The notes under the pieces: model-generated
Databases searched by the model: none
Told to the model about the DNA's origin: nothing
Seen by the model: only the letters and a program-made list of their open reading frames with translations
Position numbers and translations under genes: made by a program
Assembly (NCBI GenBank): GCA_949361645.1
Contig: OX442430.1
Coordinates: forward strand, 2,527,856 to 2,591,855
Direction of reading: 5' to 3'
Source: Spongilla lacustris
Lineage: Eukaryota > Porifera > Demospongiae > Spongillida > Spongillidae
DNA length: 64,000 bases
In this document: positions 3,177 to 57,852 of the stretch, piece after piece
Numbering within the stretch: position 1 is the stretch's first letter
Layout: every line of letters starts with the position of its first letter

Positions 3177-5119
3177 ATGTCAACATGTAATGTGCTGTCA
3201 CGCTGTCTGTATGGTCATCATCTATTGTCATCATCATCTGGTGTGGTTATCATCTTATATGCAGAGAGCACACTTCCGGCAGTGAAGTATCACTCTTGTC
3301 AAATACAGAAATCATCACAGGGCTTAAGTATGCTTCCAAGAAATAGAACAGCCAATCTTCCTTCAAATTCTGTTCCAATGACAGCAATTTCGCACATGGT
3401 CACAGGATTGGTGATACCTCAGACTCGTCATTACAAATACAGTCTATGTGATTTACTTCAAAAACTTGATTGTTATCAACATTGCAAAATAGACGGTTTA
3501 AGTTCACAACAACAGTGCTATTTTTTGCTTGCTCATTATATCCAAACATTCGAACAAGTTGCACTTACATTAGGAGGAAGCTTCAAGAAGTTGAGGAATT
3601 TGTGTTCTTTATGCTTTGAGGGAAGAGATTCATTAATAGATGTTGCAGTATACAATATTGGATGCGTTGACACAAAAGTTAGGAATCGTGTTTCAGAAAG
3701 TACTTGCAGCAGCATTGAAGTCCACGATTCTTGTTTAGCATGTCAAAGAATCAAGTCACTTATAAAACATTCTGAAGGCAAGAACGTATTTGAAGCAAAT
3801 ACCACATGTGAAAATGGTATGTTGAATTTGGTAGTGGAACACCATAGTAAAGGTTTAACGAAGAAGGATGAGGAGTCATTTGAAAGCACACTTAATCAGG
3901 CTGTTTATTTAGGTGTAGATATTCTGAGACTTATGTTGACCGTACGTGATGTTCGTACGTGTACAGTTTATTATTTCCCATCCAATGACGTATTTTTTGG
4001 TGTGGTAGCAATCAAATTATCCTTTGTGGTTCAGCTTTTGCAGTTTCAATGCACGTTTGAAGAGATATCAGCGGACAAAGTTGAAAATCACATCAAGTCA
4101 ACAATTCAATGTCATCAAAAAAATTACTTGTCTGTATTTAAAGATTTAGAACATAATGGCAACAATGTTCGTTATAACACTGCTGTATGGTTGGAGCACG
4201 ATGCCATTAAAGAGGAGATTTTAATTGTTTTTAGAGCTCATTATTTTTTCCATGACTGGACATCCATTAAAATGACTCAGTACCAATCTTCTTCATCGTT
4301 TATCTTCTTGCTTTCTTCGGAAAATGGCATGCATGTATTTGCTAAATGCCCTATTTATCCTAGAGTTAACCATACCAACATACATAGTGACTTGAAAAAT
4401 CGTATGAAAACGTTGAGCAAAACCAAACAATCCACACTCATGCACAGTCCTGTGTACAACTTATTGGAAACAGTGAAGTTTGGTGGCGACAAGTTTTTTT
4501 ACTTGTATCCACGACTTCATGGACCACTTTCACGTGAAGAAGCAAAGAAGTATTTGGCAGATTTCTTTTGTTATACTGTTGATACACTGAAATTGTTGCA
4601 TTCTTTGAAGTATTATCATTGTGATGTTAGATTGGAAAACATTTGTTTCAGTATTGATAATCCATTTCGGGCTGTTCTGATTGACATTGACCATTTTTAT
4701 GACTCAGAAGAAAAAGACTGGCAAAAAGATTTTAGTGACTTGAGTAAAAAAAGCTGTTTGTACTCTGCAGATCCTTCATTTGATCCTAATAAAACTGACT
4801 GGAGGCAACTTGGTTACACACTTGTTTGGATCTTGTGTCCAGGTAGTGCACTTACTATTCATGAATTGGAATTGGAATCATTTAGCGATAGACTTTGTAA
4901 AGTTGAGAACCTGACTTTGTCTGCAGCAACGTTCTGGGGTGTGATTATAACAAGCCTTATTCAAGGTGAGGTATATCAATTAGATGAATAGCATAGATGC
5001 ATTGATCTCATTTGTCTATCCTACCAGGGAATGAACCTAGCATTGAACATTTATCATTGGTACAGAAGGAGAAGGCATCTGGATGTATTTTGGAATCATA
5101 TTTTTGTGCTAATAGCTAG
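3177..5119 (+). CDS. Protein-kinase-like domain protein, two exons
   Basis: Exon 1 runs 3177-4965 and exon 2 5028-5119, with a 62 bp intron (CAAG|gtgagg ... ctaccag|GGAATG) that joins in frame and ends at TAG. The product is about 626 residues. The first 350 residues match no family I recognise and are Cys- and Ser-rich. The C-terminal third has kinase-fold landmarks: a candidate beta-3 lysine in VFAKCP, a catalytic loop HCDVRLEN (HRD-like, with D and N retained) and LIDID in place of DFG. The Arg of HRD and the Gly of DFG are replaced, so activity may be altered. The 1.9 kb frame is intact despite surrounding repeats. It may be a host gene or a mobile-element cargo protein. The start codon is the first in frame and could be wrong if an upstream exon exists. 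Confidence 0.6.
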
Positions 5120-6256: not shown

Positions 6257-8969
6257 TAGGCTTTATATCCGTCGACAAGTTTATTATCCGGATACCGAAT
6301 ACCGCTTTAAATACGAACGGATTCCGAAATCCGGATAATTCGGATTTATCCGGATAATTCTATGTGGTATTGTTAATTTGCGCTATATTGCCTATACATA
6401 AAATTACACTGATAAAATATGGATTACATCAATTTACATCAAATTACATGAATACTCTAAATCACAACATGCATGCTCAGTAGTCAGTACACAATAACAC
6501 AATACACTCATTTCCAAGTGCGATTACTAGCGAGAAATGTTATTGCATCAGCCATGATGGGATTCATGTGGGCTCTTTCCCTAGCACAAACTCGTCCAAG
6601 CTTTGAAAATACTCTTTCTGTCGGAGCACTCGTAGCAGGAGTAGCAAGAACCACTCTTGCAACCTTGGCAAGCTCAGGGAATCGTTTTCTTTCTACTCTC
6701 CACCAGTCAAGAGGGTCATCCTTAAGAGGTTGTGCAGCAATCTTTGAGTATTGGGCCAATTCTTTAGTCAAATCTCTTGAAGCATCAACCTTAGATGTTC
6801 CAGAACTTGAACTTCCTTCGCCTTGATAACTCGTTGACATGAAAGTGGCGAAGTCATCATCAGCTGAAGACACATGTTTTGCCCTTTTTGAAAGTGGTTC
6901 AGCTATGCATGATTCAGTTGGTAGTACTTGATCCCGTTGTAAAAGGCTCTTGTGATAGAGCTTTATGTTCTTTTCTGCAAAGGTAATTGAATCTTTTCGA
7001 TCGCTTACATTAATAAAAGGTTCAAATGACTTAAAACGTGGATCTATATATGCTGCAGCAAATAGCAAGCCATGTGTAAGGTCATCTAGATCATTGGTGT
7101 CCATATACAGACTTACATAACGTTGGTATATGTCATCTTTACATACTGCCTTTGCTATTGCGATGCACTGTGCATCTGAGGGAATAGGTAAGAGAGCTTT
7201 TTCTAACAGATACTTTACCTTCGGCATTGCAGTTGACAGAGTAACATAATGTTCCCCTTCAACAGAAAAAATCTGTTTTGCAATAGGAGCAAGATAGGAT
7301 TCAATCTGTACTAACAGATGTTTGTCACTATGAGTTAGAGATAATACATTAAAACCCCATTGTTCACTATCCTGCAGCATGTCACAAGCAGGTTTCAGCT
7401 CTAAATATCTATGTATCATTTTGCTTGAGTAACCCCATCGCCACTTTACATTCACAACTAACTTTTCAGGAGCAGGCTGGTCAGGATGAAGTGTACTTTT
7501 CAGTTCTAGCTTGCGAACCATTAGCGCTAACTCTTGCGATGCAATGTTGCTTTTTTTAATATGATTCACTCCTTCACTAAGTACTGCTACAGGTTCTTTA
7601 ACACCATCCGTTTCTAGGGAGTGCCCAATAGCCTTGTGTAGTATGTGTGCCAGACATCGAAGACCAAAAGTATTATCTTCGTCATATAGCACACGTCTTA
7701 CCTTGTCCATCACAGTCGGTCCATCAGCTGTCATGCTGAATGCTTTAACCCCAAAGCTGCTCAATATATTCCGTAGAAAAACAATAATTGTATCAGCATC
7801 TTCATGTACAACTTCATCTTTATCATTATGCAATACCTCTAATGCAGCAGCAGCTAATGTTACTGACCTCATATGGAAATCTTCCGTTATCCAATGCGCA
7901 GTAACACCAAAGAACCCCTTTTGATCTAACCTGGACCAACAATCAATTGTTGTAGATACCATTTTCTGATCATGAATGTTACTTGGGCACTCCAATTGCA
8001 ATGCTTTGCACACTCGTTCCTTCATTGCAGTGTACTCACGAAGAATCTGAGCATTAATTGTTATTGCATTTGGTATGCAAAACCTGGGGTCCATTACAGC
8101 ACAAAACTCTTTAAAGCCTTTACCCTGTGCAAGATTTATTGGCCGCATATCAGTTGTCAAAAATTTGCACAAAGCAGAAAATTTACTCTTCCATGCTGTA
8201 GATTCCCTAGCGTAAGATTTTGAAAAAAGCTCATCGCATTTCTCTTGCCGAACAGACTTGGAACTAGCCGCAGAACTTGATGCAGAGGAAGACAATCCTT
8301 GCTGCAAACAAATTCCATGTTTCGCACTTAAGTGATTAATCATGGAACCGGTGCTAGCAGCAGTAACGTTTAAAGCTTGGCTACACTGTTCACCCTTCTC
8401 GTTCTGAACGCAGCAATAAGTGATACGTTTCAAAGTATCCTTATGCACAGGCTCAGTGAAATACGCCCAGCACGCTGATCCTCCACCTCGCACTCCTTTT
8501 GCCTTCAACACCGTTGTTTTTCGTTCATCAATCGGCCTCAGATCACTTTGAACAACCCCATGAGACATTGACGGTTCGCCATCTATCAATTCACTGACTA
8601 GAACTCTATCTTTTCTTGTCAGCCAAAAAACATCCCATTTACCGTTGTCGCTGCACTTACCGAGGCGCGCAGGTAACCACTTCTCTGAGTTCTCTTCAGA
8701 CTCTTTTCCTTCATCGTCAGCGTCACATTCGTGACATTCCCATTTGCAAAGTACGAAATCACCTGTCTTGAATACTTTCACTTGAATCCCTTCATCCGCC
8801 ATTTTGGTTTTCGTTTGAATACCTGGAGTTTTAATAAGCGGTTTTAATTTTTATCATTTATCCGGATTATCCGGTTTTGAAATTACCGGATACCGGATTC
8901 CGAAAAGTGGATAAAATAGTCGGTATCCGAATAATCCGTACTTTTACAACTATCCGAATACAAACCCTA
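6257..8969 (-). mobile_element. Complete hAT transposon with 8 bp target duplication
   Basis: The octamer CTCACGAC is present at both sides (6249-6256 and 8970-8977). The termini read TAGGCTTTATAT on the left and, inward from the right, TAGGGTTTGTATTCGG. Both ends carry dense subterminal copies of TCCGGAT(A/T), a pattern usual for hAT transposase-binding regions. The element is 2713 bp with one intact transposase gene on the minus strand. Perfect duplication plus an intact ORF suggest recent arrival and possible activity. Confidence 0.93.
6508..8802 (-). CDS. hAT-family transposase with BED zinc finger
   Basis: A 764-residue uninterrupted ORF. Residues about 1-95 (GDFVLCKW, WLPARLGKC, DVFWLTRKDRV) look like a small beta-barrel of Tudor/PWWP type; this assignment is inference. 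Residues about 125-165 form a BED-type finger (YCCVQNEKGEQC ... HLSAKHG). The RNase-H-like core follows, with candidate acids in TTIDCWS and FSMTADG and the hAT signature LRCLAHILHKA. The C-terminal dimerisation region has DPLDWW and PATSAPTERVFS. The enzyme should catalyse cut-and-paste transposition leaving 8 bp duplications, which is what flanks the element. Family members are usually about 600-700 residues; the extra length is the N-terminal region. Confidence 0.93.
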   Translation of the reverse strand: MADEGIQVKVFKTGDFVLCKWECHECDADDEGKESEENSEKWLPARLGKCSDNGKWDVFWLTRKDRVLVSELIDGEPSMSHGVVQSDLRPIDERKTTVLKAKGVRGGGSACWAYFTEPVHKDTLKRITYCCVQNEKGEQCSQALNVTAASTGSMINHLSAKHGICLQQGLSSSASSSAASSKSVRQEKCDELFSKSYARESTAWKSKFSALCKFLTTDMRPINLAQGKGFKEFCAVMDPRFCIPNAITINAQILREYTAMKERVCKALQLECPSNIHDQKMVSTTIDCWSRLDQKGFFGVTAHWITEDFHMRSVTLAAAALEVLHNDKDEVVHEDADTIIVFLRNILSSFGVKAFSMTADGPTVMDKVRRVLYDEDNTFGLRCLAHILHKAIGHSLETDGVKEPVAVLSEGVNHIKKSNIASQELALMVRKLELKSTLHPDQPAPEKLVVNVKWRWGYSSKMIHRYLELKPACDMLQDSEQWGFNVLSLTHSDKHLLVQIESYLAPIAKQIFSVEGEHYVTLSTAMPKVKYLLEKALLPIPSDAQCIAIAKAVCKDDIYQRYVSLYMDTNDLDDLTHGLLFAAAYIDPRFKSFEPFINVSDRKDSITFAEKNIKLYHKSLLQRDQVLPTESCIAEPLSKRAKHVSSADDDFATFMSTSYQGEGSSSSGTSKVDASRDLTKELAQYSKIAAQPLKDDPLDWWRVERKRFPELAKVARVVLATPATSAPTERVFSKLGRVCARERAHMNPIMADAITFLASNRTWK

Positions 8970-8977
8970 CTCACGAC

Positions 8978-9303
8978 TCACGTACATTGTACGTACCGCG
9001 CGGCCAGTATACAGGTACTGATTGCATACACTCGAAAGTGTCAAACTATATAGCTAAGCAACCCTGCTTAGAGAAAACGACGGATGTAATTCCTCAGTAT
9101 GGATGGGGCTTACATGTAGGCGGGCCACTAAGTCTATATACATGTTGTATACATGTGTAGCTAGGTGACCGTACTGAATTCCATAATTCCATAATCTATG
9201 GCGGCAGCAACAGTAGGCCTAGGCAATGACATGCATATGGTCCCCACGAGTCTGATTAATTGGGGCTACGAATTGGCAACGCTTCCTACATCTCCCGTAA
9301 ACC

Positions 9304-30274: not shown

Positions 30275-30899
30275 TTCTGAAGCTCGTGTTTGAAAATGCG
30301 ACTGAACTGTAAAATGGTGAAGTTATTTAATAAAACTATTTCACACGCCGGTGCACGTGACGGGACGTACTTGGATTGCTTTTTTAAACGCGCTAAATGA
30401 TTCATGTAAAAGGGAAAGTGCATAATTATTCTACATGTATAGTCTAACTGATATATCGGTCGATCTGTGTGCGTGTTCAGCAGTATTAAGATCAGAAATC
30501 ATGGGCTTGGATCAAGCACACGTAAGCATATGTTCAAGATATAAGCGAAATCAAACAAATTCAACATTTTTCAAGTTCATGAATGCATAAAAGAACTTAC
30601 ATTAATAATTAGACCATGAAAGATCAAGCAAATGAATAGCTTGATCTTCAGTATCACGAGCTGCATGGCTCAGTTGGAGACAAACAACACTTTGGTTTGT
30701 GTGTAGCGGCGAGCCACGCAAAAAAGAGGCATAATGGACTCCCACTACCCCGGCTATAAAGGTGTAAATTACTCCTAGGATCCTAGGCACACACGAATTC
30801 TATAAACTACGCGTAGCTTAAGTAACCTGTTGAAGTGAGAAAGGAAGCTTGCATGGATAAGGATGAATTTGATCAGTTGTAGTAATGTGGAGGACTCTC
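30275..30899. other. Region upstream of the 7TM receptor
   Basis: This would contain the receptor promoter (minus strand). No TATA box at a convincing distance was seen. No other gene was recognised. Confidence 0.4.
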
Positions 30900-31140
30900 C
30901 CTGGTTACCCTCTTCCCTGGTTACCCTATCCCTGGTTACCCTATCCCTGGTTACCCTATCCCTGGTTACCCTATCCCTGGTTACCCTATCCCTGGTTACC
31001 CTATCCCTGGTTACCCTATCCCTGGTTACCCTATCCCTGGTTACCCTATCCCTGGTTACCCTATCCCTGGTTACCCTATCCCTGGTTACCCTATCCCTGG
31101 TTACCCTATCCCTGGTTACCCTATCCCTGGTTACCCTCTC
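30900..31140. repeat. 15 bp minisatellite, 16 copies
   Basis: The unit CCTGGTTACCCTATC is repeated 16 times; the first (16 bp, ...TCTT) and last (...CTC) units are variants. Because 15 is a multiple of 3, all frames give five-residue repeats (VTLSL, WLPYP; VTRDR on the minus strand). The predicted repeat proteins are artefacts. Copies are otherwise identical, suggesting recent expansion. The unit is reminiscent of TTACCC telomere-like words but is not a telomeric repeat. Confidence 0.97.
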
Positions 31141-31387: not shown

Positions 31388-31512
31388 CCGGTGTCACATG
31401 CACAGGCATGTGGGTCCACCCCCCATTTTGGGTCCAGGGGTACCCATATGCCTAGGCAACTGGGTCCCCCCCTCCCGGACCCATATACCTAGGCAATAGG
31501 GTCCGGGTAATT
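31388..31512. mobile_element. CTAG-palindrome element E1 (GGGTCC type)
   Basis: It begins CCGGTGTCA and holds repeated half-palindromes around CTAG: ATGCCTAGGCAA...GGGTCC and GGACCCATATACCTAGGCAA. It shares its terminus and layout with elements at 46.4, 50.5, 52.3 and 52.6 kb but has its own middle sequence. The right end is uncertain; a G-rich stretch follows at 31538-31562. No coding capacity. Confidence 0.55.
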
Positions 31513-32160
31513 ATTTGTACATCCAGACATCTTAGTCCGGGTAGGGGGTGGAGGGGGGGGGGATGACCGAGTTTCCTGATGCGTTTACGATAGACACATT
31601 TTTTCAGTTTTACTGTCTCAACGGCGTCCGTCAGCCGTTACACTGTAACACAATAAAATAAATAAATAAATAAATAAATAAAAATAAGTTGAGCAAATAC
31701 AAACAATGAATGGGTCATGTTCAATAAGTACATGCGCAACTGTTTCTTCGTAGTATACAGGACTTAATGATTGACCTGTCGATCCCAACTGATGCAATTT
31801 TGAGACACGCTAGGAAACTATCATCACTGCATGTGCTCAGCCGGGTAATATATACATCTGTCATTTGCATCCAGGGCTCTGGAGGCAACTTAGATCAACC
31901 AGGGAGAGGGCCCTCCCGCGCGAGGCGCGGAAGCTTTCAGTGCAGTGGAATATTCCTACATGAAAACCACATGCAGTTTCATAACAAAATCAGTGCTTCC
32001 GACAGCACTATAATAAGTACGCATATAGTTTTGAAGTAACAAGCAAGCCATCGTTATTGAATGGCATATATATAATATTATAATAATGATATACCCACTC
32101 AACGAGCGATATACAATTATACCAGTGTAACAATTTCTGATATCTAACTATTATCCTTGC
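31513..32160. other. Stretch without a recognised gene
   Basis: It contains an (AAAT)n microsatellite at about 31652-31684 and a G-rich tract near 31540-31562. ORFs here show no family resemblance. It may be intron or flank of the duplicated-exon locus that follows. Confidence 0.45.
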
Positions 32161-40014: not shown

Positions 40015-40644
40015 TTATATGTATTCGCCATCAGTACTAGTGGCATCACAGTGATAGCACGGTAAGCCTGTCAGGCCTGCAAAGTAGTGGTTACCACACA
40101 CCTCACAGTGGCTTTCGCGGTAGTCTCCGATGCAGTACCCGTATTTTCGATGCTGAGGGCAGTGATTGTGCGACTTTCCAGAGTCAAACGAGGGCTTTCC
40201 TGTACACATCTCGGTAATGTAAATTCCGTCACAGTGCTGTTCAACTGAACGGACGCATCTGAAAGTTGCGCTACAGCCGCCATTCCCGTAATCAAGCCCC
40301 GCGTAGTCTGGTTGGTAGAGGACGTCGCGCACATGACATGTTATCTTCTTGCCGCATGTGTGGCACTTTCCATCCACCAAAGGCTGATCCAAGCCCCATT
40401 TGCCCTCCGGATCGCACTTCGGGTCTTCTAGTCTTACATATCCCTTTAGGATGGCTGCCTTGAGGCATTTGCTTACTCTTTCCACGTCCGTTACTCCGAG
40501 GAGCGCCAGTAGCTCGTTCATCCGTTTCTCTGTCACGCCTGGCATCGTTTTAAAGTTGCCACTACGTGCAGTGGTGGTCGCACGGGTTGACTTTCTCTCA
40601 GCAGATGTAGATGCCTTGGATCTCTTTGAATACGGTACATCCAT
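40015..40644 (-). CDS. Cys/His-rich protein, copy 1 (complete, 209 residues)
   Basis: The ATG at MDVPYSKRSK is chosen because it is shared with copy 2, whereas the upstream residues differ. A basic Ser/Thr-rich head (about 1-35) precedes a helical segment (VTEKRMNELLALLGVTDVER) and a long Cys/His region: CHTCGKKITC, GGCSATFRC, HNHCPQH, HCEVCGNHYF and CYHC, at least 14 cysteines, suggesting several zinc sites. I do not recognise the family. The ORF is intact. The surrounding 0.8 kb is duplicated at 52.9-53.66 kb, and copy 1's upstream region took two later insertions. It may be a nuclear zinc-binding protein or a transposon-carried gene. Confidence 0.6.
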   Translation of the reverse strand: MDVPYSKRSKASTSAERKSTRATTTARSGNFKTMPGVTEKRMNELLALLGVTDVERVSKCLKAAILKGYVRLEDPKCDPEGKWGLDQPLVDGKCHTCGKKITCHVRDVLYQPDYAGLDYGNGGCSATFRCVRSVEQHCDGIYITEMCTGKPSFDSGKSHNHCPQHRKYGYCIGDYRESHCEVCGNHYFAGLTGLPCYHCDATSTDGEYI

Positions 40645-40763
40645 GTCGAGTACATGTACATGCACCTATTAATTTAAAAAAAAAAAAAAGTCAGTTACGA
40701 GCGCTTTTCTTAATCACTCAATTAACCGCTATTTCGACTCAGCAATTAATTAATTAGATTGAA

Positions 40764-43990: not shown

Positions 43991-46326
43991 CTTTCATCGA
44001 TTTGTTTTTAGTAGTGGCTATATTGCACAACCCATATGTAGGTACTGCGAAGGTTTGTATGACAATCCAGCCCTTGTACTGTTGATTCCCAATCTGAAGC
44101 TAAAATCCAGCCCATTATCAAATAGGATTGATACTCATTTAATATTTTCAAAATGTTCAGTACATTTCCCAAAGTATAAAAAATCAATGCGAAATCAAAC
44201 ACAGATAAATTGCACCTGAAAATGAATCACACAAAATGAGATTTTAAATCTTAATTTGATATATCAAATATATCCATTATAAAATCGTACTCACAATCAA
44301 ATAAGATTTGACTAACTAAAGGTATATTACTAAGGCAAGTAAGTGGCAAGGGAGAGGGTGGGCACCAGGATGGTTTTGGTTGAATGAATACAGTCTCTCA
44401 CTATATGATGCATGTATAAATAGTCCGTTTAATCTATGCGTTAGCTGTTTTAATCAATCTTCAATTGTGCGCTTTAGAAAATGAGAGCTTCATATTTACT
44501 ACGATGTTGGTGCCATGTATAACACACTCTTAAGCAAGCAACTATTTCCAAGGTCAATAAATCTGCCACCTCTATCTCTGATAGCTCAAATCGTCGGGCC
44601 TACACCAGATGAAGTGATTACGAGATTCAATTGGGATAGATGATCTACAAAAAATTAATTACTTAATTAAGAATTGAGATAAGGAAGATTATGGAATTAA
44701 GACAAGTAATAATGTTTCATATGTTGTCATTGTTTTCGTTTTTGTTTATCAGTATACATCAGTTGTATGTACCCACAGTCACACACAGCTGACGATTCAT
44801 TCCACAGATCACACTCTGCTGAGATCCAGCCGCACCTTCATATACACCCCCAATTTCCCACACCATGCCATCCTTACATTGATGTACATTTCTAAGCACT
44901 TCAATTCATATTTATAAATGACACACTCTGCATGGATCTCATTCCACAAAGCTGCAGAAAGATGTATTTACGTTTCAAGTATATGAACTTTCCATGCAGT
45001 TTGTTGACTGCCTATGCTTGAAATTGATCATCGAATGATGTCAGCCTATCATCCACAATCTAATTGATTGTGTGAAAAAATGAACCAAACAATTATAAGG
45101 TACCTCATATACACATATAATATTCAAATTATAATTGGACAATTTACATGAAAATTGCTCTCTTTTAATAATATTATTTTTATTAATGAAGCACAATTAT
45201 AGTGGAAACTGTTCCAATAATATAATGGTTTCTTGCTGATTGTCTAATGCACTTCCATTCGTTCATGTATGTGGCTGATACACTGTATATGGCTTCCATT
45301 TAAGTTGTTGATGTCTCTTCAAAATGTGTGCTAATATATGATTCGTATTTTGAATCAATTCAAGGCAAAACATTACAAATAATCAGGTATCTTAATAGTG
45401 ATGGTACAAGTATTGTATAATGTTTTTTTGTATCAGTTACTTTCTGCAATGTGTACGATGTGAGGACTGGGAAATAGAAGGATTTTTGTGGACCATTTCA
45501 CTTCATACTGTATGTCAGAGTGCACGGGGTGAATGCTGTATCACGTTAATGCCATATTATACATGTAGGCACCAGAACTAAAGCAAAAGAATCAGTCAGA
45601 CTGCAGCATCTTTGTTTGCAAGGTTGTATTATACCACAATATGTCCAAGAATGCCATGTTGAAATTTTCTTACCTGATCAGTGAGTGTGTAGCAGAGAAT
45701 TTGCCTTTGAAATTTACTGTGTGTGTTATTTCACCAGCTAAATGTTGTGATTCTAAACCCACAGTATTTAAATCTACAGACAGACAGTTCTGAGCTTTGG
45801 TCTTGGCTAGCAAAACGGCTTCTGCAAAGGTAAGCTATAAAGCACACAAGTAATAATTGTGCTAACACACATTCAACCCCAACAGCCCACATGTCACATA
45901 TTTTAATTATAAGGCTATACATCGAGTCAAAGTCACTGTCGCCACCAATTAAACATCTGATGTCGTGAAAGAACTTCTGTCTTGTTTTTAAATTGCTTTC
46001 ATCATATCACTTCTGTCTTGTGTTTAAATGATAAATTAGCTATTCACTATAATATATACATTAAACATCTGATGCCATGAAAGAACTTCTGTCTTGGTTT
46101 TAAATTATAACTTCCAAATTATCAATTAGAACTACTGTTCTGTGTAAACATTGTTCTCATTATAAATTTGTCTGCCTTAACGGTTTTGATTTCGGTGAGA
46201 ATCGTAGTTATAATTACCAGTGGTTGTCAAACGCTAACGGTTGCGATTTCGGTGAGGATCGATTTCTTTTTTTAATTATACACGCTATGATTACCAGTGG
46301 TTGTCAAAATCAAATCTCCTTTCTGT
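43991..46326. other. Long AT-rich stretch, no intact gene
   Basis: At 45024-45105 (+) a degenerate fragment DHRMMSAYHPQSN followed by a stop and CEKMNQTI matches the integrase block (usually SAYHPQTNG.xE..NQT), so an integrase relic exists here. Two tandem-like segments ending GATTTCGGTGAG(A/G)AT with TACCAGTGGTTGTCAA lie at 46180-46310. AGAACTTCTGTCTTG is repeated three times near 45970-46100. Nothing else was recognised. Confidence 0.45.
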
Positions 46327-46413
46327 CAGGGAATTGAGTCCGCCTCCTCCCCCGGACTGTATTCCCTGGATGTACAATATTTTACACGGACCATGTTCCC
46401 TAGGGAGTTGGGT

Positions 46414-46450
<37 letters not shown>

Positions 46451-46519
46451 CGTATTCCCTAAAGGAATACGGTCCGCCGGACCGATAATTGGTCTGGATC
46501 GTATACCCTATGACACCGG
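46327..46519. mobile_element. CTAG-palindrome element E2 (GGACCGTATTCC type)
   Basis: Reading on the minus strand it starts CCGGTGTCATAGGGTATACG and contains GGACCGTATTCC ... GGAATACGGTCC palindromes, a CTAG-centred CCCTAGGGA, and a run of 33 G (plus strand 46416-46448). The same words occur in E5 at 52507-52722. No coding capacity; target duplication not determined. Confidence 0.65.
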
Positions 46520-46934
46520 AACTGGCCGTACGAGACAAAAGCAGCAAAATAAAACATGTCAAGGCCAATGTATTTCTCTTTGGCACTGAGGAGCTAAAGT
46601 TCTGCTTAAAAAAAAGGAAATGTGGTAAAAGGCAGACCACTACACCATCGCTATGCCTATAGACTCTTCTCAACAGCTGGCTACTCCAGCAGCCTCACCA
46701 CCATCACTACAGTCCAGTCCATCAGCTGGTTTTTGTACAAAAGTGTCATATTTCCACAAATCTTTGTCATAACAAGATTGAACGGTATACCTGGCTGGCT
46801 ATGGCTGGGGTACATGCTTTGTATGCAGCTTTTAAGAGTATGTTTAAACAGCCTTCCGCTCCGTCCATGCAGCAATTACCTTTTCTGCATGAAGTAATTA
46901 GTCTTTGTCCGCTTGTATAACAGCAGCGTAGGGC

Positions 46935-47140
46935 TAAATTAGGCAGTCTGTTTTGGTCCAAGGACCAAATCCGGCTGCTTGCTAAGCTTAATTTTGTCCA
47001 CCTGCATGTATAGGACCAAAATGAGCAGCGTATAAGACCAAATTAGGCAGCCTATTTTAGTCCGCCGGACCAAAACAGGCCACCTGAAATGGTCCTACGA
47101 CCGTTTCAGGATAGGACAAAATCAGCCGTGACAGACCCAA
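46935..47140. mobile_element. CTAG-palindrome-family relative E6 (GGACCAAATTAGGC type)
   Basis: Contains repeated GGACCAAA(A/T)...GGCAGCCT...TTTAGTCC half-palindromes and TGAAATGGTCCTACGACC. It resembles E7-like words at 52035-52135 (GGACCATTTCAGGAC, GGACCAAATCAGGCAGAGCC). Ends are unclear, and membership in the family rests on the GGAC/GTCC layout only. Confidence 0.4.
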
Positions 47141-48080
47141 TGCTATCGTCGTTTAGCACTGGACAAGTAGTATACTGTATATTTCACACCACTGCATGGT
47201 GTTTAGTACTTATGGTGGATTAGGTCCTGCTGCCAAAACCTTCTGTAAGATCGAGGCTTGCGTCACTTATTGCGCAGAAAAGCACGATCAGCCGTAAAGC
47301 CTAAGTCTGTTTAGGTTTCGTGTCAAATTGAGCTTTTAGTTGCTACGTTCTGCAATCATGTGCCTTCGTGGCAAAAAATCGTCATACCATCGAGGTGCAC
47401 GCTCCCCACTTGACTCTACCATTGATCTGCCCTGCTCAGCAGGTAATGTTTTGTATGTATGCCCTTGCTCATGTCAGTGATATAATTATATCTTGATCAT
47501 TAAATTTATCGTTCCACGCAGTATTAAATGTCGGAAAAACAAAAAAACTAGGTAATCTTTGGCAAATAAATAGTTCATTCATCGCCAAAAAAAAACGATC
47601 GGTTTGCAAGTTGTTATAAAATCGATTGGGCTTTTTTCAACAGTCGAAATAATCGATTTTGTTTAAAAAGGTTACACATGCACACTAATACCAAGTATAG
47701 ATTAGCGTGTAATGTACAAACGGTACACATGCATGCAATGTTTTATGGTATTACCCCCACATTCAGACCGACCTATACAGCGCGCTATATTTTATATGAC
47801 TGTACTGCATTGTGCTTGTATGCTATGAAATAAACACCAATGCACGCCGACACTGAATAAATGAAATGGTACAATCTACAATAGTCTATAACAACCTAAC
47901 ATTGTAATTTAACATGTCCTTGCTCAGTCTGTACTATGTACTTCCTACATAAGAAGAGAAAAGGAAGTATATAAATATAATGCATACCTGATCACACGAC
48001 GACTATCAGTAGATATGCCAATGCACGACCATGCATTTGAAGGAGTTCCACACTTACCGCGTGGCTGCATGTCTTGGTCC
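47141..48080. other. Stretch without a confirmed gene
   Basis: A possible short first exon starts ATGTGCCTTCGTGGC at 47357 and meets a gtaatg donor after TGCTCAGCAG, but no following exon was found. The remainder is AT-rich without recognised content. Confidence 0.4.
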
Positions 48081-48719
48081 CTATACATTGCGAATGAACG
48101 CAATGTCAAGGTTACCCCCCTGGTTGTTTCTGGCGGAGCGCTGCACGTTGCAAATGGGCTCCCTGTTGCAAAACTCCGGGCGCCGCCCGGTCTCCCGTGG
48201 TGGATGGTCCGAACTGATGCAGTTGTCACAGCTGTATGGGAACACCCCCACTATGCCTTTGTTCTTGTCATATTCCTTGCTCTCAAATGACTTGACCTTG
48301 CTCTTCCCCCCGTTGCTGGTCCAGTCGTTAGCGCTTACCGACATGCTGATTATCGTATTGGCGCCGGTTACACCCGATATGTCTATCGTTTCCTGCCCAC
48401 CAGGTTGGAAGCCATTGTTGATGATGAACTCGCCAAGACTAACGCCGTGGGGAAAGCCTGGAGAGGGTCCGTTCAACGGCGGAGTGCCGAAGGCGATGTT
48501 GCCGTTGATGCATTTTCCGGGGGGGTTGGGAACAATTTGGGTAGACTTTCTTGCCGGTAAGGTGAACTTGCCCATCAGCTGACCCATTGGTGTGATTCTA
48601 ATTGAAGAGTCGCTCAAGCGCAGGTCGGAGATTCTCACACAGCCCATGGTAGCGCCAAGAGTGATGAACGCAACAACAGGATTATTAGACCTGTTAGTTA
48701 CTGACAGCGTGGTCGGCAT
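48081..48719 (-). CDS. Unassigned 212-residue intact protein, single exon
   Basis: Starts MPTTLSVTNRSNNPVVAFIT and ends at a stop after FIRNV. It is rich in Gly, Asn, Ser and Thr with predicted beta character: GNIAFGTPPLNGPSPGFP, GVSLGEFIINNGFQPGGQE, TIDISGVTGANTIISMSVS. Paired cysteines cluster late (YSCDNCISS, EFCNREPICNV). I sense a thaumatin-like or other secreted beta-sandwich organisation but cannot assign a family. No signal peptide is evident, which argues against secretion. A TATA box lies about 65 bp upstream of the ATG. Higher GC than the flanks and absence of introns are compatible with horizontal transfer, though this is only inference. Confidence 0.55.
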   Translation of the reverse strand: MPTTLSVTNRSNNPVVAFITLGATMGCVRISDLRLSDSSIRITPMGQLMGKFTLPARKSTQIVPNPPGKCINGNIAFGTPPLNGPSPGFPHGVSLGEFIINNGFQPGGQETIDISGVTGANTIISMSVSANDWTSNGGKSKVKSFESKEYDKNKGIVGVFPYSCDNCISSDHPPRETGRRPEFCNREPICNVQRSARNNQGGNLDIAFIRNV

Positions 48720-48779
48720 TTTCCTCTTGTAATTACAGTTCTCTCAAGAGGTTTACTACATGAATGCACATGCATACTG

Positions 48780-48791
48780 CCCTCTTTTTAT
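48780..48791 (-). promoter_or_regulatory. TATA box upstream of the 212-residue ORF
   Basis: On the minus strand GGTATAAAAAGAG lies about 65 bp before the ATG at 48719. This position suits a core promoter with a 5' UTR of 30-40 nt. No promoter assay can be inferred from sequence. Confidence 0.5.
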
Positions 48792-50052
48792 ACCGCTAGG
48801 TTTAATGTACATGGGATAAATGTGTTAGTAAATATGCATGGTGTAGCCGTGTAGGTGACATCAACACCGTCGTAAATATAAAGTTCTTCATTTACAATAG
48901 CGGTATAACACATTTCCGTCGCACTAATAATGAATTACCGTGGGTACCTTTATGGTGAATTAATCCTGAGCGTCTATACCATTATGCATGCACGTTCAGT
49001 TGTGTACATCGACATTAAAAAACACTCTGCCGTTGCATGCACGGGCATATGCGGGTTTGTCACGACAAAAATTATCCTACCTAATATTTATCCTATAGAA
49101 TAAAGTTTTGCTGCCAAAAAGTATCCCATGGGATTAAAATTTTCAGCTAAAATGTATCCTTGGATGCCAAATGATTTTCCGGCTACCCCACCAAAAAGTG
49201 TCCTATGGGGGATTTACACCGTCAAATTCCATGAAATAGTGTACTGTGCCCTCTCCGGTTAAGTTTTGCAAACGTAGGTTATTTTTCACTCCAATTATAG
49301 CGCATCCATGCATGGGCTTGAAGATATGAACCTTCTCATGAGACCATGAGTGAAATCCCGGCCCCTCCATCCCGCGATCCTTTATGATGTATATGATGCA
49401 GTGACCTCCAGTCAGGATACAACACCGCGGCTGCATGGGAACGGCATGAATTCTATTTTGTATTGGGGAATCGGTTTTGTTTGTCATAGCGTGCATGTAT
49501 ACTAAGTTCTAAGTGCATTTCGGCCTATTGATGCAATGCTTAGTAACTAATATCGCTTTCTCCCAGCACCAGCTTGCAGTACAGCTCTCGCATTTCAAAT
49601 TTCTTAGATCTCAGCCGAATGCACAGCGGATACACGCCGGCTGTCTTTTAAATACAGATGCACATCAGTATAGTCCACACTTCCAGCCGTATCCTTGGCT
49701 CACTATCCACATGCATGTTGGCTACACGTACAAGTTGCTGAACAATAAGAGATTTAATAGCACCTGCTGCAGGTGTTCAGTGTGCTATTTCAATCACGTA
49801 GCCAGCTTGCAGGATGTCTGGCGTGGTGGAGGGAGGGGGGGGGGGGGGGGGGGGGGGGGGCTCCTTGCCAGTTGGCTATGGCTCTCCCTTCCCCCCATCT
49901 CCATCCCATTCTCCCGAACTCCCCTGGCAACGGGCTTGCATGTACTCTAGCTGTGGGACAAAAAATGGCAGGGTGGGATAATTTCTTGCAGTTTGGAATG
50001 TTATTCTATTTTGGACTCGGGAGGACCCAAATCCATCAGTTACCAAAGAACT
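48792..50052. other. Stretch without a confirmed gene, left of the assembly gap
   Basis: A 97-codon minus-strand ORF (49203-49496; HAVPMQPRCCILTGGHC, FHSWSHEKVHIFKPMHG) has a coding-like composition but no recognised family. It could be a fragment. A run of 26 G lies at 49835-49860. ORFs across that run are artefacts. Confidence 0.4.
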
Positions 50053-50252
50053 NNNNNNNNNNNNNNNNNNNNNNNNNNNNNNNNNNNNNNNNNNNNNNNN
50101 NNNNNNNNNNNNNNNNNNNNNNNNNNNNNNNNNNNNNNNNNNNNNNNNNNNNNNNNNNNNNNNNNNNNNNNNNNNNNNNNNNNNNNNNNNNNNNNNNNNN
50201 NNNNNNNNNNNNNNNNNNNNNNNNNNNNNNNNNNNNNNNNNNNNNNNNNNNN
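50053..50252. other. Assembly gap (200 N)
   Basis: Exactly 200 unknown bases, a conventional scaffold-gap size. Sequence on either side need not be truly adjacent. Confidence 0.99.
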
Positions 50253-50512
50253 TAGGACTTCGTCAATAATTATTGCAAACAACTGCCACAGGGGAGGAAA
50301 AAGTTAATCTACAACGTTGAACAAGTAATGAGTTGTTGTATCCAAGGGATACAGTAGTTTGCTGCATGCATGGACGACAGGTTATTAGCTATAGAGCCAT
50401 ATCGATATCTTTCCTTGGTAAAACGTTAATCGTATCCCATAATTATGTGTAAGCGCTTTGTTGCGTTCCTTTAAATGCGCATCCAATTGCTGTATAAAGG
50501 GGTAAGTTCAAG

Positions 50513-50652
50513 CCGGTGTCGGAGCAGATTCTGTCCCCCCGCAGATTTTGTCCCCCCGGACATAATCTGCTAGCGGAACTTGTCCCCCACGGACGTAATC
50601 CGCTAGCAGATATTGTCCCCCTTCCGCAGAAATTGTCCCCCCCCCCCCCCCC
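50513..50652. mobile_element. CTAG-palindrome element E3 (GCTAGC type)
   Basis: Begins CCGGTGTCGGAGCAGATTCT and carries repeated ATAATC(T/C)GCTAGC units between GTCCCCC blocks, ending in a run of 16 C. It is the inverted counterpart, in sequence type, of E4 at 52206-52419. Confidence 0.65.
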
Positions 50653-50789
50653 TTTTCCCCGTTCGATACTCCAATACGTATAGCCTTTCCTGTACACTGT
50701 AGGTGTCAACAGTAATCAGTACAGGTGATCGATACTCCGCCTTTCGTAATATGTATAGCCAGGGCTGCTAGCTGGGAGTGAGATATCAA

Positions 50790-51627
50790 CAGTGATGCCG
50801 CGGCCAGCAAGGACCGTCCGTGACCGTATTCATTTGACGGTTTTTGACGGCCGACCGTGACCGTGACCGGGAAGCACGTGATTAAACCGTGAAAAATTAT
50901 TGGCCGTCAAATTTATTAGCTGGCCGTCCGTGGCCGTCAGAACTTTTGACGGTCCATTAAGCCCATTCACGTCACTAGCGTCACGTGCAGTGGATTTTTT
51001 CCCTGCGTGGCAAATGTTGTCTTTCCAAGAACCTTTGTTGAGGATAAGCCACCTGATAGCGCGGTGAAGTTAGCAGCAAACCCACCCGACTGTCACCAAT
51101 ACGTGGTTATGGAACAATTTTATTATTTACGTTGTCCCCCTCGCCATGACATAGTCTCGTCCCCAGCCTGACTTGTATTCACGATGTTAGTCCATCCGCT
51201 GCTGCCGAATGTGGGTCTGGGGATGCGACTTGCCGCCTTATCGCGTGGATTCCACGTGCGAGCGAGTTTTCTCCCAGTTGAGACTCATTGTGAAGATGGA
51301 GGATGGATCCAGCCAGGATTGAATCTGTTCTCTTTCTCAGCTGCAATAAAGCCTTTAGTTAATTGAATCTGTTCTTTCACACTTGTTTTGCTATGCCCAT
51401 GCATACCGTTCATGAACCATTTTTATTGATACGTGCATGCCAAACTTCTATAGCATAAATAATGACCGTCCGTGACCGTATTAAAATTTTGACGGTTGAC
51501 GGCCAGCCGTGTACGTGACCGTATTGAAATCATACGGTCCATCTTTGACCGTGAACGTGACCGTCTATATCCAAACGGCCAGCCGTGAACGTGACCGGAT
51601 TGTCAAAAGCTGGCCGCGGCATCACTG
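50790..51627. mobile_element. 838 bp non-autonomous hAT, 8 bp duplication
   Basis: Terminal repeats CAGTGATGCCGCGGCCAGC and mirror, flanked by GATATCAA on both sides (50782-50789 and 51628-51635). Both subterminal regions are filled with GTGACCGT and GACGGCC words. The interior holds a relative of the 104 bp hairpin MITE (GTCCATCCGCTGC, GGGTCTGGGG near 51190-51225). No ORF. Its own flanks, GGGCTGCTAGCTGG and GCTAGCAGCCCC, are inverted relative to each other, so it probably sits in an older hairpin. Confidence 0.93.
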
Positions 51628-51635
51628 GATATCAA

Positions 51636-52201
51636 CCCTCCCCCCCCCCCCCCCCCCCCCCCATGGTATATTAGGATCAGGTCGTATAAGCTAGCAGCCC
51701 CGCCCGCTTTTTGCATCGGGTCCCAGACATACAGTATCCTCCATTCCTTTTCGTATCGGGCCCCGAAGGCTATTAGCAAAATACCCGACTCGGGTATACT
51801 TCCCCTACCCAGTCCCGCAGTCCTATCAATCGATCACCCCGCCAGACTTCTTGCCTCTCTGGTGCGTTTTGCAGCTGCTAGCTTTCAAAAGACATGAAGC
51901 CATTGAAGGCGGCCGGGTACGACAGCCACATAGGTGTCACATGTATTATAAAATTTATAGTGGAGATCAATCATCAATGGTATATAGTGAAATTTCCTTA
52001 TACACAGCTTGTAATGGTTCTATAAGACCGTCAAAGCCTATTTCTATCGGCTATAGGACCATTTCAGGACATTGGCCGTGAGTCGGCCCGTGACATGACT
52101 TCAGGACCAAATCAGGCAGAGCCTGGGATTTAGGATATACATGTGTATCGGTCAGACTATGCACACGAAGCTGCGCTAATAAACACAAAGGGATGGGGAA
52201 G

Positions 52202-52205
<4 letters not shown>
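51636..52205. other. Stretch between hAT and E4, no gene
   Basis: A run of 23 C at 51640-51662 and a fragment of the GGACCAAAT...GGCAG family at 52035-52135 (designated E7). No coding region was recognised. Confidence 0.45.
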
Positions 52206-52233
<28 letters not shown>

Positions 52234-52419
52234 ACATATTCTGCGGAGATGGGACAAAATCCGCTAGCAGAATGTGTCCCCCCGGACAGAATCCGCTAGC
52301 GGATTTTGTCCGGGGGGACAGAATCAGCTAGCGGATTTTATCCGGGGGGACATAATCCGCTAGCGGATTCTGTCCGGGGGGACAATAATTGGGGGGGACA
52401 GAATCCGCTATGACACCGG
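52206..52419. mobile_element. CTAG-palindrome element E4 (GCTAGC type)
   Basis: Starts with a run of 28 G and ends, on the minus strand, with CCGGTGTCATAGCGGATTCT. Between are four to five palindromes with the layout GGACA(G/T)AATCCG-CTAG and its mirror, ending TGTCC and separated by G blocks. No coding capacity. Confidence 0.75.
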
Positions 52420-52506
52420 TATACACGGAGAATTGAGCACTTCAACTGTGTAATTTGAAAAGGTGGCTTGCATACTGACGTGCACTGCCCCAAGTGTGTA
52501 TAGATG

Positions 52507-52722
52507 CCGGTGTCATAGGGTATACGGTCCGGGGCAATTTTAGGCCCGGGGGACCGCGTATTCCCTTAGAGAACACGCCCCCCCCTCCCGGACCAAAATC
52601 CCTAGGGTATACGGTCCCCCGGACCGAGTTCCCTGGTTGTACAAAATCAATTAACCGGACTCAATTCGGTTTCCCTATAGGGAATACAGTCCCCCCCGGA
52701 CCGTATTCCCTGCACGGTATAC
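52507..52722. mobile_element. CTAG-palindrome element E5 (GGACCGTATTCC type)
   Basis: Begins CCGGTGTCATAGGGTATACG like the minus strand of E2 and contains AATCCCTAGGGTATACGGTC, TTCCCTATAGGGAATAC and GGACCGTATTCCC. The right end is unclear near CGGTATACATC. It lies about 90 bp right of E4's CCGGTGTC terminus in opposite orientation. Confidence 0.72.
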
Positions 52723-52723
52723 A

Positions 52724-53365
52724 TCATAAAATACACGTATATACCGCGCGCGCGCATGCAGGTAAGGGCTGGCACCTTTGGTTCGATAAGCTGATACATT
52801 CCATAGAGTTTACGGCCATGCATGCAGTTCGGTAAGTTCGGGGCCGCTCCCACCGCAGGTCACAACCGGACCACTTTTTGTACGGCGGCGCCGGCCCTGC
52901 AGTGTCAAACGAGGGCTTTCCTGAACACATCTGGGTAATGTAAATTCCGTCACAGTGCTGTTCAACTGAACGGACGCATCTGAAAGTTGCGCTACAGCCA
53001 CCATTCCCGTAATCAAGCCCCGCGTAGTCTGGTTGGTAGAGGACGTCGCGCACATGACATGTTATCTTCTTGCCGCATGTGTGGCACTTTCCATCCACCA
53101 AAGGCTGATCCAAGCCCCATTTGCCCTCCGGATCGCACCTCGGGTCTTCTAGTCTTACATATCCCTTTAGGATGGCTGCCTTGAGGCATTTGCTTACTCT
53201 TTCCACGTCCGTTACTCCGAGGAGCGCCAGTAGCTCGTTCATCCGTTTCTCCGTCACGCCTGGCATCTTTATAAAGTTGCCACTACGTGCAGTGGTGGTC
53301 GCACGGGTTGACTTTCTCCCAGCAGATGTAGATGCCTTGGATCTCTTTGTATACGGCACATCCAT
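52724..53365 (-). CDS. Cys/His-rich protein, copy 2 (3' end replaced)
   Basis: From MDVPYTKRSK to GKPSFD this is nearly identical to copy 1 at 40015-40644: same helical segment and CHTCGKKITC, GGCSATFRC block. At about 52905 homology stops: copy 1 continues with its Cys/His tail (HNHCPQH ...), whereas copy 2 reads unrelated TAGPAPPYKKWSG to a stop at 52724. The last zinc-binding modules are therefore lost. The breakpoint follows a GC-rich CGGCGGCGCCGGCC patch. Homology with copy 1 also covers about 300 bp upstream of the ATG (to 53662). It may be a pseudogene. Confidence 0.6.
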   Translation of the reverse strand: MDVPYTKRSKASTSAGRKSTRATTTARSGNFIKMPGVTEKRMNELLALLGVTDVERVSKCLKAAILKGYVRLEDPRCDPEGKWGLDQPLVDGKCHTCGKKITCHVRDVLYQPDYAGLDYGNGGCSATFRCVRSVEQHCDGIYITQMCSGKPSFDTAGPAPPYKKWSGCDLRWERPRTYRTACMAVNSMECISLSNQRCQPLPACARAVYTCIL

Positions 53366-53662
53366 GTCGAAAGGCAGTACATGCACGTCAGTTTTGCGCG
53401 CTTTTCTTAATCACTCAATTTACCATCTATTTTGACTCAGCATGCAATTAATTAACAATATAACGGACATGAATTCATAACTTTGGTGTGTGATGTGTTA
53501 TATTAAACCATTGTCGTTCATGTTGTCATAATCTTTAAATTAATTAACTTTTTTTGGGGCAAATTTAAAGTGCTTTTCCAGTGCTTTGAAACGTAACATC
53601 ACGCAAAATGGGGATTAGGAACTTAGGATGAAGTGATGTCACATTTTGAACTAAAATTAGCT

Positions 53663-55225: not shown

Positions 55226-57852
55226 GTTGCAACAAGGTATGATGGACTTATGAAAGTGCATTTGCATTTTGATATTTTGTCTTACGCAGAGACATTTTTG
55301 ATTGATGCAGCCAGTAGTGCACTTGCAAGCATTGCTCACAAAATGGTTCCAGGGTGCTTGTTGCCTTGCTGCCTCTCTTAAAGAGATGCTGAGCATATCA
55401 CACTGTCAGAACACCATGTTGAACACCTGCAGAAATGAAGGATATTGAAACAATGAATCAGATATGCACCTCAAACGATATAGGGTCTGGTCACCACCCA
55501 CTATTTCAACAGCAGTGCAGGGCAAGCTGGAAAGGTCTAAACTGGCACGATCAATGCGAGGAATTCTGAGTAAGACAATTTCACCAATTAAGAAGGATTG
55601 AATTTTTTTTCCTTTAAGGTACCAGACGCTAGGTACTTCATGTCAGCTTTTTCTCTAACCTGTAACAACAGAAAGTGACAAAAATGCTATAAGGGTTGCA
55701 TTTCAGCTTACATTTCTGTGCTTCAGTGATGTGGCCAGTGGATCTACATGAGACATTTTGATGAGCCGTTCACTATGCATGTTGTCAATCTTCCTGTCTC
55801 CTTCCTGGTCGTTAACTTGTGATTCTTCAGGCCTTGAACATGTAACTTCTACCTCCTTTTCTTTTTCCACATTCCTCACCTCGTTACCACATACTTTGGA
55901 ATGTTGAGCTTCGATTTGTTTATCAACTCCATTCTCAGTTAGAGATTCCTTTGGAGTTACATCATCATTGGTGGGCATGTTGAACTGAATTCCCTCATCT
56001 TCAAGGTCCTCCTCTAGCACCATTGACCTTTGTTCTGTTGGAAAGAAAACTGCCCGGCTCTCTGACCAAACATATCATGTACTTGAGTATTCATTGCATC
56101 TATAAAACCCTATAGTATATGGGAAAGTTTACGAGAAAAGGGACCTAGCGTGTATTATAAAAAAGTATAATAAAAATGCATTACGTTTGATTTGCTATAA
56201 CTTCCGAACAGTTAACGCTATCAACTTCCAATTTCCAACACTTCATACTGCACCATTTCTCTATGGTAAAATATATTTAGGAGTCTTGCACTTGCTCCGT
56301 GTCAGTATTGCAACGTTCGATACCCCACTGGATTCAAACCCGCCATAACTTTCGGTAGGAGTAATCAATTCGCTTCAAATTCGGTTTGTAGATAGAGAGG
56401 TCCTATACCTATCGATTTGTTCTGTTCGTTAATTTTTATGCCATCCGTTACGGAGATACAGTTGAACAAACTACGTGCACGTTTTCCCGCTTGATTCGCG
56501 CCAATGTTATAATCCCCGCCTCCCCATACATTGAGCGGAACGCAATTTGCCCAAATCATTGGCGCGAATCGAGCGCGAAAACGGGCACGTAGTTTGTTCA
56601 ACTGTATCTCCGTAATGGATGGCATGAAAATCAACGAACAGAACAAATCGATAGGTATAGGACCTCTCTACCTACAAACCGAATTTGAAGCGAATTGATT
56701 ACTCCTACCGAAAGTTATGGCGGGTTTGAACCCAGTGGGGTATCGAACGTTGCAATACTGACACGGAGCAAGTGCCAGACTCCAAAATATATTTTACCAT
56801 AGAGAAATGGTGCAGTATGAAGTGTTGGAAATTGGAAATTGATAGCGTTAACTGTTCGGAAGTTATAGCAAATCAAACGTAATGCATTTTTATTATACTT
56901 TTTTATAATACACGCTAGGTCCCTTTTCTCGTAAACTTTCCCATATGGCTTTACATGTATATATCCAATACATGATAAGACTGACTTACATATTATCCTA
57001 GGCAACCATTCACTCCAAGGTGATGCTTTCATCCCTCTGGTGCTAATTTCAGTAGCCAATTTTTTATGCAATGTCTGATGAGCCCTGTCAACTAGTCCTT
57101 GACTTTGAGGATGTCTAGGACGACCACTGATCAACTGAATATTAGAATGCCATTCCTTTAGCAAGTTTACAATAATATGATTGATAAATTCTCGACCATT
57201 GTCAGAGTGCAAAATCCGTGGCACATCAAAGTAAGGGAAGATGTGTACAGTTCTTAGAATGTCATCAACATTTCAGCTGTTTTACTGTCCAAAGCATATG
57301 CGAAATTGAATTTTGGCCAATGGTCAAAACAGTATAATCCACTTCTTTGTTCCATGAGGGAGATGTCTCATGTTAAGTCAATCTACAAAAGAATGCAATC
57401 TTTGTCCGCATTGCGTACTTGTAAAATAACATATACCTGCAACCGACAAAAAGAGCCATGAGCAATTATTGGTCTCAGTGGACCACTAGAGACCTGTGGT
57501 TTACGCAACTGACAGCTTGGACACATAGAAACAAATTTTTCAACTGCACTTCGTGGAATTCCATGATACATGCTATGCAACTGAACACAATAACCGTTAT
57601 CAACGTTAGAAATTTTCAAACTATTCTCCAATCTTATATTACCGTGACATGTTAAATGTCTTCTTGTAACCGCATGCAGGAACTCCTTTTCGTACATTTC
57701 CTGGATAAGTCCGTAGAACTCTTCAACAAATGCCACTCTCCTATTCTCCCCAAGAGCTGTATTGTCTTCCAATGCCTATATTACACAACAAATTTTTGTA
57801 CGCTAACCCGGCTAGCGAGTGACATATACCTGATGTTTAGCTGGTATGACTA
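55226..57852 (-). pseudogene. Second KRBA2-like integrase gene, decayed and interrupted
   Basis: Order on the minus strand: RRVAFVEEFYGLIQEMYEKE with the HHCC finger (VSMCPSCQLRKPQ) at 57772-57430; a broken core (MRHLPHGTKK ... HWPKFNFAYA with stops) near 57380-57250; PRILHSDNGREFINHI and SQGLVDRAHQTLH at 57224-57010; an acidic linker (EDLEDEGIQFNMPT) at 56029-55714; a strand-rich segment (GEIVLLRIPRIDRASLDLSS) and SISLREAARQQ near 55590-55370; and a Cys-rich tail (NACKCTTGCINQKCLC, IIPCCNSR) at 55350-55226. The glutamate of the third catalytic block is replaced by D (LVDRAH). Stops, frameshifts and the palindrome at 56120 make it non-functional. It supplies the C-terminal half missing from the copy at 1184-2784. 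Confidence 0.75.
56120..56943. mobile_element. 824 bp palindromic element inside the KRBA2-like copy
   Basis: TGGGAAAGTTTACGAGAAAA and its mirror bound two arms of about 400 bp that are nearly exact reverse complements (TTACGTTTGATTTGCTATAA, CCTCTCTACCTACAAACCG and others on both). The centre is near 56530 (CCCCGCCTCCCCATACAT). Flanks are TA/TA; ATAT/ATAT with ends shortened by one base is equally compatible. No coding capacity. The two arms differ by few bases, so it is young relative to its decayed host gene. Confidence 0.88.

Follow-up and report, generated by a model that had tools for sequence, protein, structure and literature searches.

We analysed a 64,000-nucleotide stretch of the Spongilla lacustris genome (contig OX442430.1 (C17), positions 2527856 to 2591855), referred to here as the window. 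The assembly (GCA_949361645.1) comprises 248,560,934 bases in 51 contigs, and all genome-wide counts cover the whole of it. The original prediction described five micro-elements in the window, E1 to E5. Each was said to have the terminus CCGGTGTC and internal palindromes of one design, GGAC-N8-CTAG-N8-GTCC, with a core (N8) that differs between elements. We find that these are not small elements but the ends of transposons of about 1–6 kb. E3 and E4 bound a single element, and E1, E2 and E5 each represent one end of a partial copy. The transposons form families of non-autonomous cut-and-paste elements, most likely of the Ginger1 type. Within a family the cores are common to its members; they differ between at least seven families.

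The palindrome frame is abundant. It occurs at 3,928 places genome-wide (counted once on each strand), compared with 4 for the reversed pattern. Termini reading CCGGTGTC-N-TAG-N8-GTCC were found at 553 places, and those reading CCGGTGTC-GGAG-N8-GTCC at 170; neither pattern had any match when reversed. We read terminal cores from 100 listed places among the 553 and assigned our own family letters. At least seven cores were recognised, with minor variants: A, GGTATACG; B, CGGATTTT; C, GCATACGG; D, TGCACAAT or TGTACAAT; E, TATATATT; F, GCATGGTT; G, GAAATTCT. In alignments of 14 representative stretches from the seven families, nothing outside the end arrays aligned between families. The sole interior match was weak (60%) and involved two group-G members.

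Full-length copies are found elsewhere in the genome. The sequence CCGGTGTCATAGNNNATAC is present at 213 genomic places, many of them facing pairs around 4.4 kb apart. We fetched 20 two-ended copies of family A, 2.9–5.8 kb in length. Their terminal repeats are 106 bp including CCGG and 96–99% identical in the three copies measured. One copy (L014) aligns end to end with three others (L010, L011 and L013) at 93–95%. Terminal repeats of family B are about 110 bp and 84% identical. On contig C1 there are 26 facing same-family pairs within 10 kb, spanning 952–4,498 bp; family A accounts for sizes of 1.7–4.5 kb and the remaining families for 0.95–2.7 kb. A further C1 pair of 5,015 bp was rejected as one element because it joins a D terminus to an F terminus. 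Lone ends also occur: at locus L054, two family-F right ends (7585–9289) share one orientation and are separated by 1.5 kb, and no left end was found in the fetched stretch.

The ends that we fetched were selected for CCGG before TGTC. Hence, CCGG at this position is not itself proof of a target site. Three insertions (L013, L070 and L015) sit in repeated gag-like sequence, which permits a search for empty sites. For L013, a family-A insertion, the joined flanks with a single CCGG were found at 23 places, 22 of them exact. For L070, of family D, there were 25 places, 18 exact and 23 with CCGG. We conclude that, for families A and D, the 4-bp CCGG is duplicated target sequence and the element itself runs from TGTC to GACA. 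The sequence CCGGTGTC had been taken as the exact boundary; the empty sites place that boundary at TGTC. Across the genome, MCGK precedes TGTC at 648 termini (1 in the reversed control). These comprise 553 with CCGG and 95 with CCGT, ACGG or ACGT, the minority forms being counted at single ends. The collected termini of families A–C and E–G, and the right end of family D, start with TGTCA or TGTCG. Other family-D starts are TGTCT in one copy (L080) and TGTGG at the left ends of L057 and L070. Separately, a family-F left end with ACGG before TGTC lies at position 5614 of L013, about 0.5 kb past the family-A element.

These properties match those given for Ginger1 (PMC2836005). In hydra, Ginger1 duplications are CCGG (75%) or CCGT/ACGG (24%), and the 5′ end is TGTNR (PMC2836005). 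Ginger1 elements have 4-bp duplications, terminal repeats of 40–270 bp and lengths of 2.6–7 kb, and include non-autonomous copies that share ends (PMC2836005). The sponge elements have the CCGG duplication, the minority forms at single ends, TGTNR ends and terminal repeats in the same size range. Length is a mixed case: the 20 family-A copies fall within the Ginger1 range, and the C1 pairs of other families measure only 0.95–2.7 kb. Three other superfamilies do not fit. Elements of hAT type make 8-bp duplications and have CAGNG-like ends, while CACTA elements make 3-bp duplications and end in CACTA or CACTG. Both are inconsistent with a 4-bp CCGG duplication and TGTC ends. Membership of piggyBac (TTAA target, CC..GG ends) fails because the empty sites hold CCGG and no TTAA.

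Several target-site observations weigh against the Ginger1 assignment. Two of the 25 empty sites for L070, both inexact, read CTGG. The empty-site pattern for L015 gave 0 matches. The left end of L057 is preceded by CCTG. Finally, among the 13 family-A termini that do not begin with C, there are four GCGG, two ACGG, two TCGG and five others. In this family, ACGG (2 of 13) is thus no commoner than other altered forms.

The search for a transposase also counts against it. Ginger1 transposases are integrase-like, with H2C2, DDE and GPY/F regions, usually together with OTU or Ulp1 (PMC2836005). We searched genome-wide with the integrases of the window and of locus L053; only the best candidates were scored and listed. 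There were at least 149 matches of Ginger type for the window query and at least 151 for the L053 query, the weakest of which are probably Gypsy. None of the C1 matches listed (0 of 30 for each query) lay within a paired element. No integrase query matched any of the 20 family-A copies. The longest open frames in these copies are 152 codons, and four frames of 133–152 codons had no Pfam match. Four long family-A pairs (of about 8.3, 9.1, 18 and 18 kb) contained no listed integrase match when inspected by eye. Hence, no transposase was found inside the elements checked. Copies in which no integrase is found, although unlike Ginger1, are expected of non-autonomous elements. With the defining protein not found in the copies examined, membership of Ginger1 is likely but unproven.

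The same transposons could instead be mobilised by a helper from an undescribed, or another, CCGG-targeting DDE superfamily, with Ginger1-like ends having arisen by convergence. The lack of an integrase inside any element checked is consistent with this. So too are three integrase loci (L053, L054 and L055), where no CCGGTGTC ends pair around the integrase; in L054, the two family-F right ends are 4.6 and 6.2 kb from it. However, the genome is rich in Ginger-type integrases. Furthermore, in the literature compared, the combination of CCGG duplication, CCGT/ACGG minority and TGTNR ends matches Ginger1 only. We therefore regard a helper of another superfamily as unlikely.

Locus L053 contains a Ginger-like element with an integrase of its own. 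An identical 181-residue stretch of this integrase is present at seven places among the matches listed, which suggests recent spread. The terminal repeats hold CCGGTTACGTAACCGG palindromes, which significantly exceed shuffled sequences only on the left, and inspection by eye identified a related half-site near the tip. The flanks are TATA rather than CCGG, so L053 is not likely to be the helper; this also counts against the Ginger1 assignment. We regard L053 as a partly independent parallel for palindromes in Ginger-like ends.

The window itself has two Ginger-type integrase genes. The first is a minus-strand frame at 1184–1993 (rve Pfam E 7.7e-10), with an N-terminal piece at 2542–2736. It has genomic relatives and adjoins a 22-bp tandem array (597–1134). 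Proteins from Ephydatia muelleri, Nucella and Pycnogonum are among the named relatives of the window integrase. The second, at 55238–57775 on the minus strand, is broken. A foldback element with 390-bp arms (56117–56946) lies inside it.

The element ends share one layout. From the outside in, there is a terminal half-site (TGTC followed by NTAG or GGAG, then N8-GTCC), a C run, usually a short second half-site ending in GTCC, and up to five full palindromes, linked for the most part by short runs of C. In families B, E and F, wherever both ends are known, one is of the NTAG form and the opposite end of the GGAG form; the listed places extend this to G. The opposite end of family D is TGTG-GGAG, and family A has ATAG at both ends. 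Spacing was measured in the collected set of termini described below. Of 67 neighbouring palindrome pairs less than 75 bp apart, 46 are spaced at 31–33 bp. Where GTCC is separated from the following GGAC by C alone, the run measures 3–5 bases in 69 of 84 cases, a count that includes overlapping loci. Both the G/C homopolymer spacers and the family-specific cores of the original prediction are borne out genome-wide. The long G/C runs that adjoin E2–E4 look, for the most part, like expanded C-run spacers.

In the window, CCGGTGTC was found at all five predicted places: 31388(+), 46519(−), 50513(+), 52419(−) and 52507(+). Shuffled sequences gave a mean of 1.0 and a maximum of 4. Eight 28-mers have the GGAC-N8-CTAG-N8-GTCC frame and every one adjoins an E1–E5 end. 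The prediction of a shared design therefore stands for the frame but not for a perfect mirror; in each unit, between 1 and 4 of the 14 pairs are mismatched, and a single mismatch is found only at 52284 and 52348. One unit of E2, GGACCGTATTCC (46447–46475), was credited with a CTAG centre and actually has CTAAAG. Counts of perfect palindromes were above chance, relative to shuffles, for E4 and the left sides of L053 and L055. They were no different from shuffles for E1, E2, E3, E5, the right side of L053 and the stretch upstream of the window integrase. The signal is the GGAC/CTAG/GTCC frame rather than perfect pairing.

We suggest that the palindromes are putative binding sites for the transposase. 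DNA has 10.5 bp per helical turn. Hence, a spacing of 31–33 bp is about three turns, the phasing expected where dimer sites form an array. An integrase-like transposase would be supplied in trans, with a DNA-binding part that acts as a dimer. Such dimers could occupy the palindromes along one face of the helix. All families would then share the contacts made by the fixed GGAC, CTAG and GTCC letters, and those made by N8 would be specific to each family. The lone terminal half-site may position the catalytic domain on TGTC. A half-site at the cleavage end, dyads, three-turn phasing and matching throughout each family all fit an array for a dimeric transposase.

An alternative is that the arrays act through DNA secondary structure, as hairpins with G-run spacers, or bind host or regulatory proteins. 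Palindromes and G/C runs could extrude or stall replication, and 31–33 bp phasing would suit a host factor equally well. However, the units in the window are imperfect palindromes with a conserved frame, a matching half-site stands at the terminus beside the presumed cleavage point, and a common host factor does not predict family-specific cores. Hence, we consider this explanation improbable.

According to the original prediction, the terminal core and the internal cores of an element change together. For this analysis, 83 distinct termini were collected and 79 were used; the other four lacked an internal palindrome within the following 276 bp. Sampling was not random: the 20 family-A loci were chosen as facing CCGG pairs, and the others are the first listed C1 places. 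Since their spacing or GTCC differs, E1, E2 and the left end of L074 fall outside the set. Across the seven families, the true pairing of termini with own-family cores was the best of 5,040 permutations, by both mean and best match. Mean similarity was highest to the own family in five of seven cases; family A was slightly nearer to E (5.11 vs 4.95) and G nearer to A (4.62 vs 4.29). By best match, the own family was highest in all seven, with ties for F and G. Within families no covariation was seen (P 0.98 for A, 0.56 for B, 1.0 for D and 0.83 for E), and power was low: terminal cores hardly vary, F and G have one each, and C had too few termini. The prediction is therefore supported between families and, at this low power, not supported within them. 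We conclude that covariation is a property of the family, with at least one exception. In that case (L064), a G-type terminus is joined to E-like internal cores.

The terminal word had also been equated with the inner half of the element's own repeat. Exact identity was confined to 8 of the 79 ends; agreement covers the first two letters in 73 and the first three letters in 25. In family A, 47 of 49 termini carry GGTATACG, but the internal cores are mostly GGAATACG, GGAATTGA and GGAGTTGG. This difference is constant across nearly all copies. Given covariation at the family level, inheritance per family suffices and copying machinery inside elements is not needed. In terms of the binding model, a family's protein has to bind the terminus as well as the internal sites, which would explain their resemblance, and the set would be inherited as a whole. 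The copying mechanism first proposed, in which gene conversion or template switching between arms keeps cores alike within each element, could draw on covariation between families and on arrays that look prone to rearrangement (irregular unit numbers, adjoining G/C runs of up to 33), but is very improbable given the lack of tracking in A, B, D and E, the families whose terminal core is not uniform (at little power), the rarity of exact identity, the fixed family-A difference and the mixed array of L064.

A more specific version of the transposase-binding model is a modular recognition code. Here, a protein fold would read the constant frame and an exchangeable part would read N8. We offer this tentatively; on present evidence it is possible but doubtful. 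If true, new families would arise by a core switch in all sites, and so no longer share the transposase of their relatives. A mixed array like that of L064 would represent a switch in progress, and palindromes of the L053 type would be more distant outcomes. The system would be a eukaryotic counterpart of REP/RAYT co-evolution.

The original prediction knew of no named repeat class with a constant frame and variable core. This overlooks bacterial REP palindromes, which have a fixed short head and a palindromic core that varies with lineage and co-evolves with the RAYT transposase (PMC2817692). As with the sponge elements, a constant part is combined with a variable palindromic core, and many REP copies have no transposase gene (PMC2817692). 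Unlike any integrase-like enzyme proposed here, RAYTs are bacterial tyrosine transposases. The likeness is one of logic only, and the common GTAG letters are probably a coincidence. To our knowledge, neither a CCGG duplication nor multi-unit terminal arrays are part of the REP/RAYT system. Elements of hAT and CACTA type have multiple short subterminal motifs, near both ends, that bind transposase. The arrays described here are similarly placed, with binding predicted. The hAT and CACTA motifs are short, and none is known to us to be a full palindrome that combines a constant frame with an exchangeable core. For Ginger1, a word search of the main text of PMC2836005 found neither 'palindrom' nor 'subterminal', and searches of open-licence papers found no title or abstract that describes palindrome arrays of such design for it. 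Hence, a modular end architecture of fixed frame and family cores, on a known type of transposon, is apparently undescribed.

At least seven variants of a common end architecture exist in parallel in this genome, at several hundred termini. Because the frame is fixed and the cores are swapped, contacts that read each could be separable by comparison and by simple binding assays. The system bears on open questions: how families escape each other's transposase, and how a protein and its scattered sites shift specificity together. In practice, CCGGTGTC-NTAG-N8-GTCC is a signature for non-autonomous Ginger1-like families that gene-based searches would miss.

Coordinates of the individual features are listed in Table 1. 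The family-B element has ends TGTC...GACA and holds E3 and E4, which are inverted copies of one another (50513–50621 against 52419–52313, 84% over 110). A 1,061-bp copy elsewhere (L067) has the same layout. E3 has two full palindromes (50558 and 50591) and a C16 run; E4 has palindromes at 52252, 52284 and 52348 and an inner G28 run. The main aligned pieces of the family-A copy that ends in E2 are 84–96% identical to L027, L021 and L014. E5 is the opposite end to the E2 type of family-A end. It is 80–81% identical to the ends of L010, L014 and L027, and 86% identical to those of L011 and L013 over 207–208 bases. For E1, no right end was found within the window.

Table 1. Coordinates of transposon features in the window and of the Ginger-like element at locus L053
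Feature	Position	Strand	Details
Family-C copy, left end and partial interior (E1)	31388..32070	+	Matches L074; palindrome 31477-31504
Partial family-A copy, surviving end E2	44762..46519	-	Terminus 46519; array 46327-46515; G33 run
Complete non-autonomous family-B element	50513..52419	+	1,907 bp; CCGG target-site duplications 50513-50516 and 52416-52419
E3, left end	50517..50652	+	Terminal half-site TGTC-GGAG-CAGATTCT-GTCC, then second half-site
hAT-type element inside family-B element	50790..51627	.	838 bp; outside the palindrome system
E4, right end	52206..52415	-	Terminal half-site TGTC-ATAG-CGGATTCT-GTCC
One end of another partial family-A copy (E5)	52507..52791	+	CCGG 52507-52510, then TGTCATAGGGTATACGGTCC and palindromes
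L053 Ginger-like element	L053 3228-6938		rve core, PHD finger, sub-threshold Ulp1

The nested hAT-type element has 19-bp perfect inverted repeats, CAGTGATGCCGCGGCCAGC, and an 8-bp duplication, GATATCAA, read from the sequence. It has at least 40 further genomic places (40 of 879 candidates were scored). Two other repeats lie beside the transposon ends. Positions 40179–40665 and 52900–53386 are 97% identical, the latter copy immediately past E5, and encode a cysteine-rich open frame without a Pfam match. To the left of E1, at 30898–31137, there is a 15-bp tandem array of TCCCTGGTTACCCTA with 15.9 copies.

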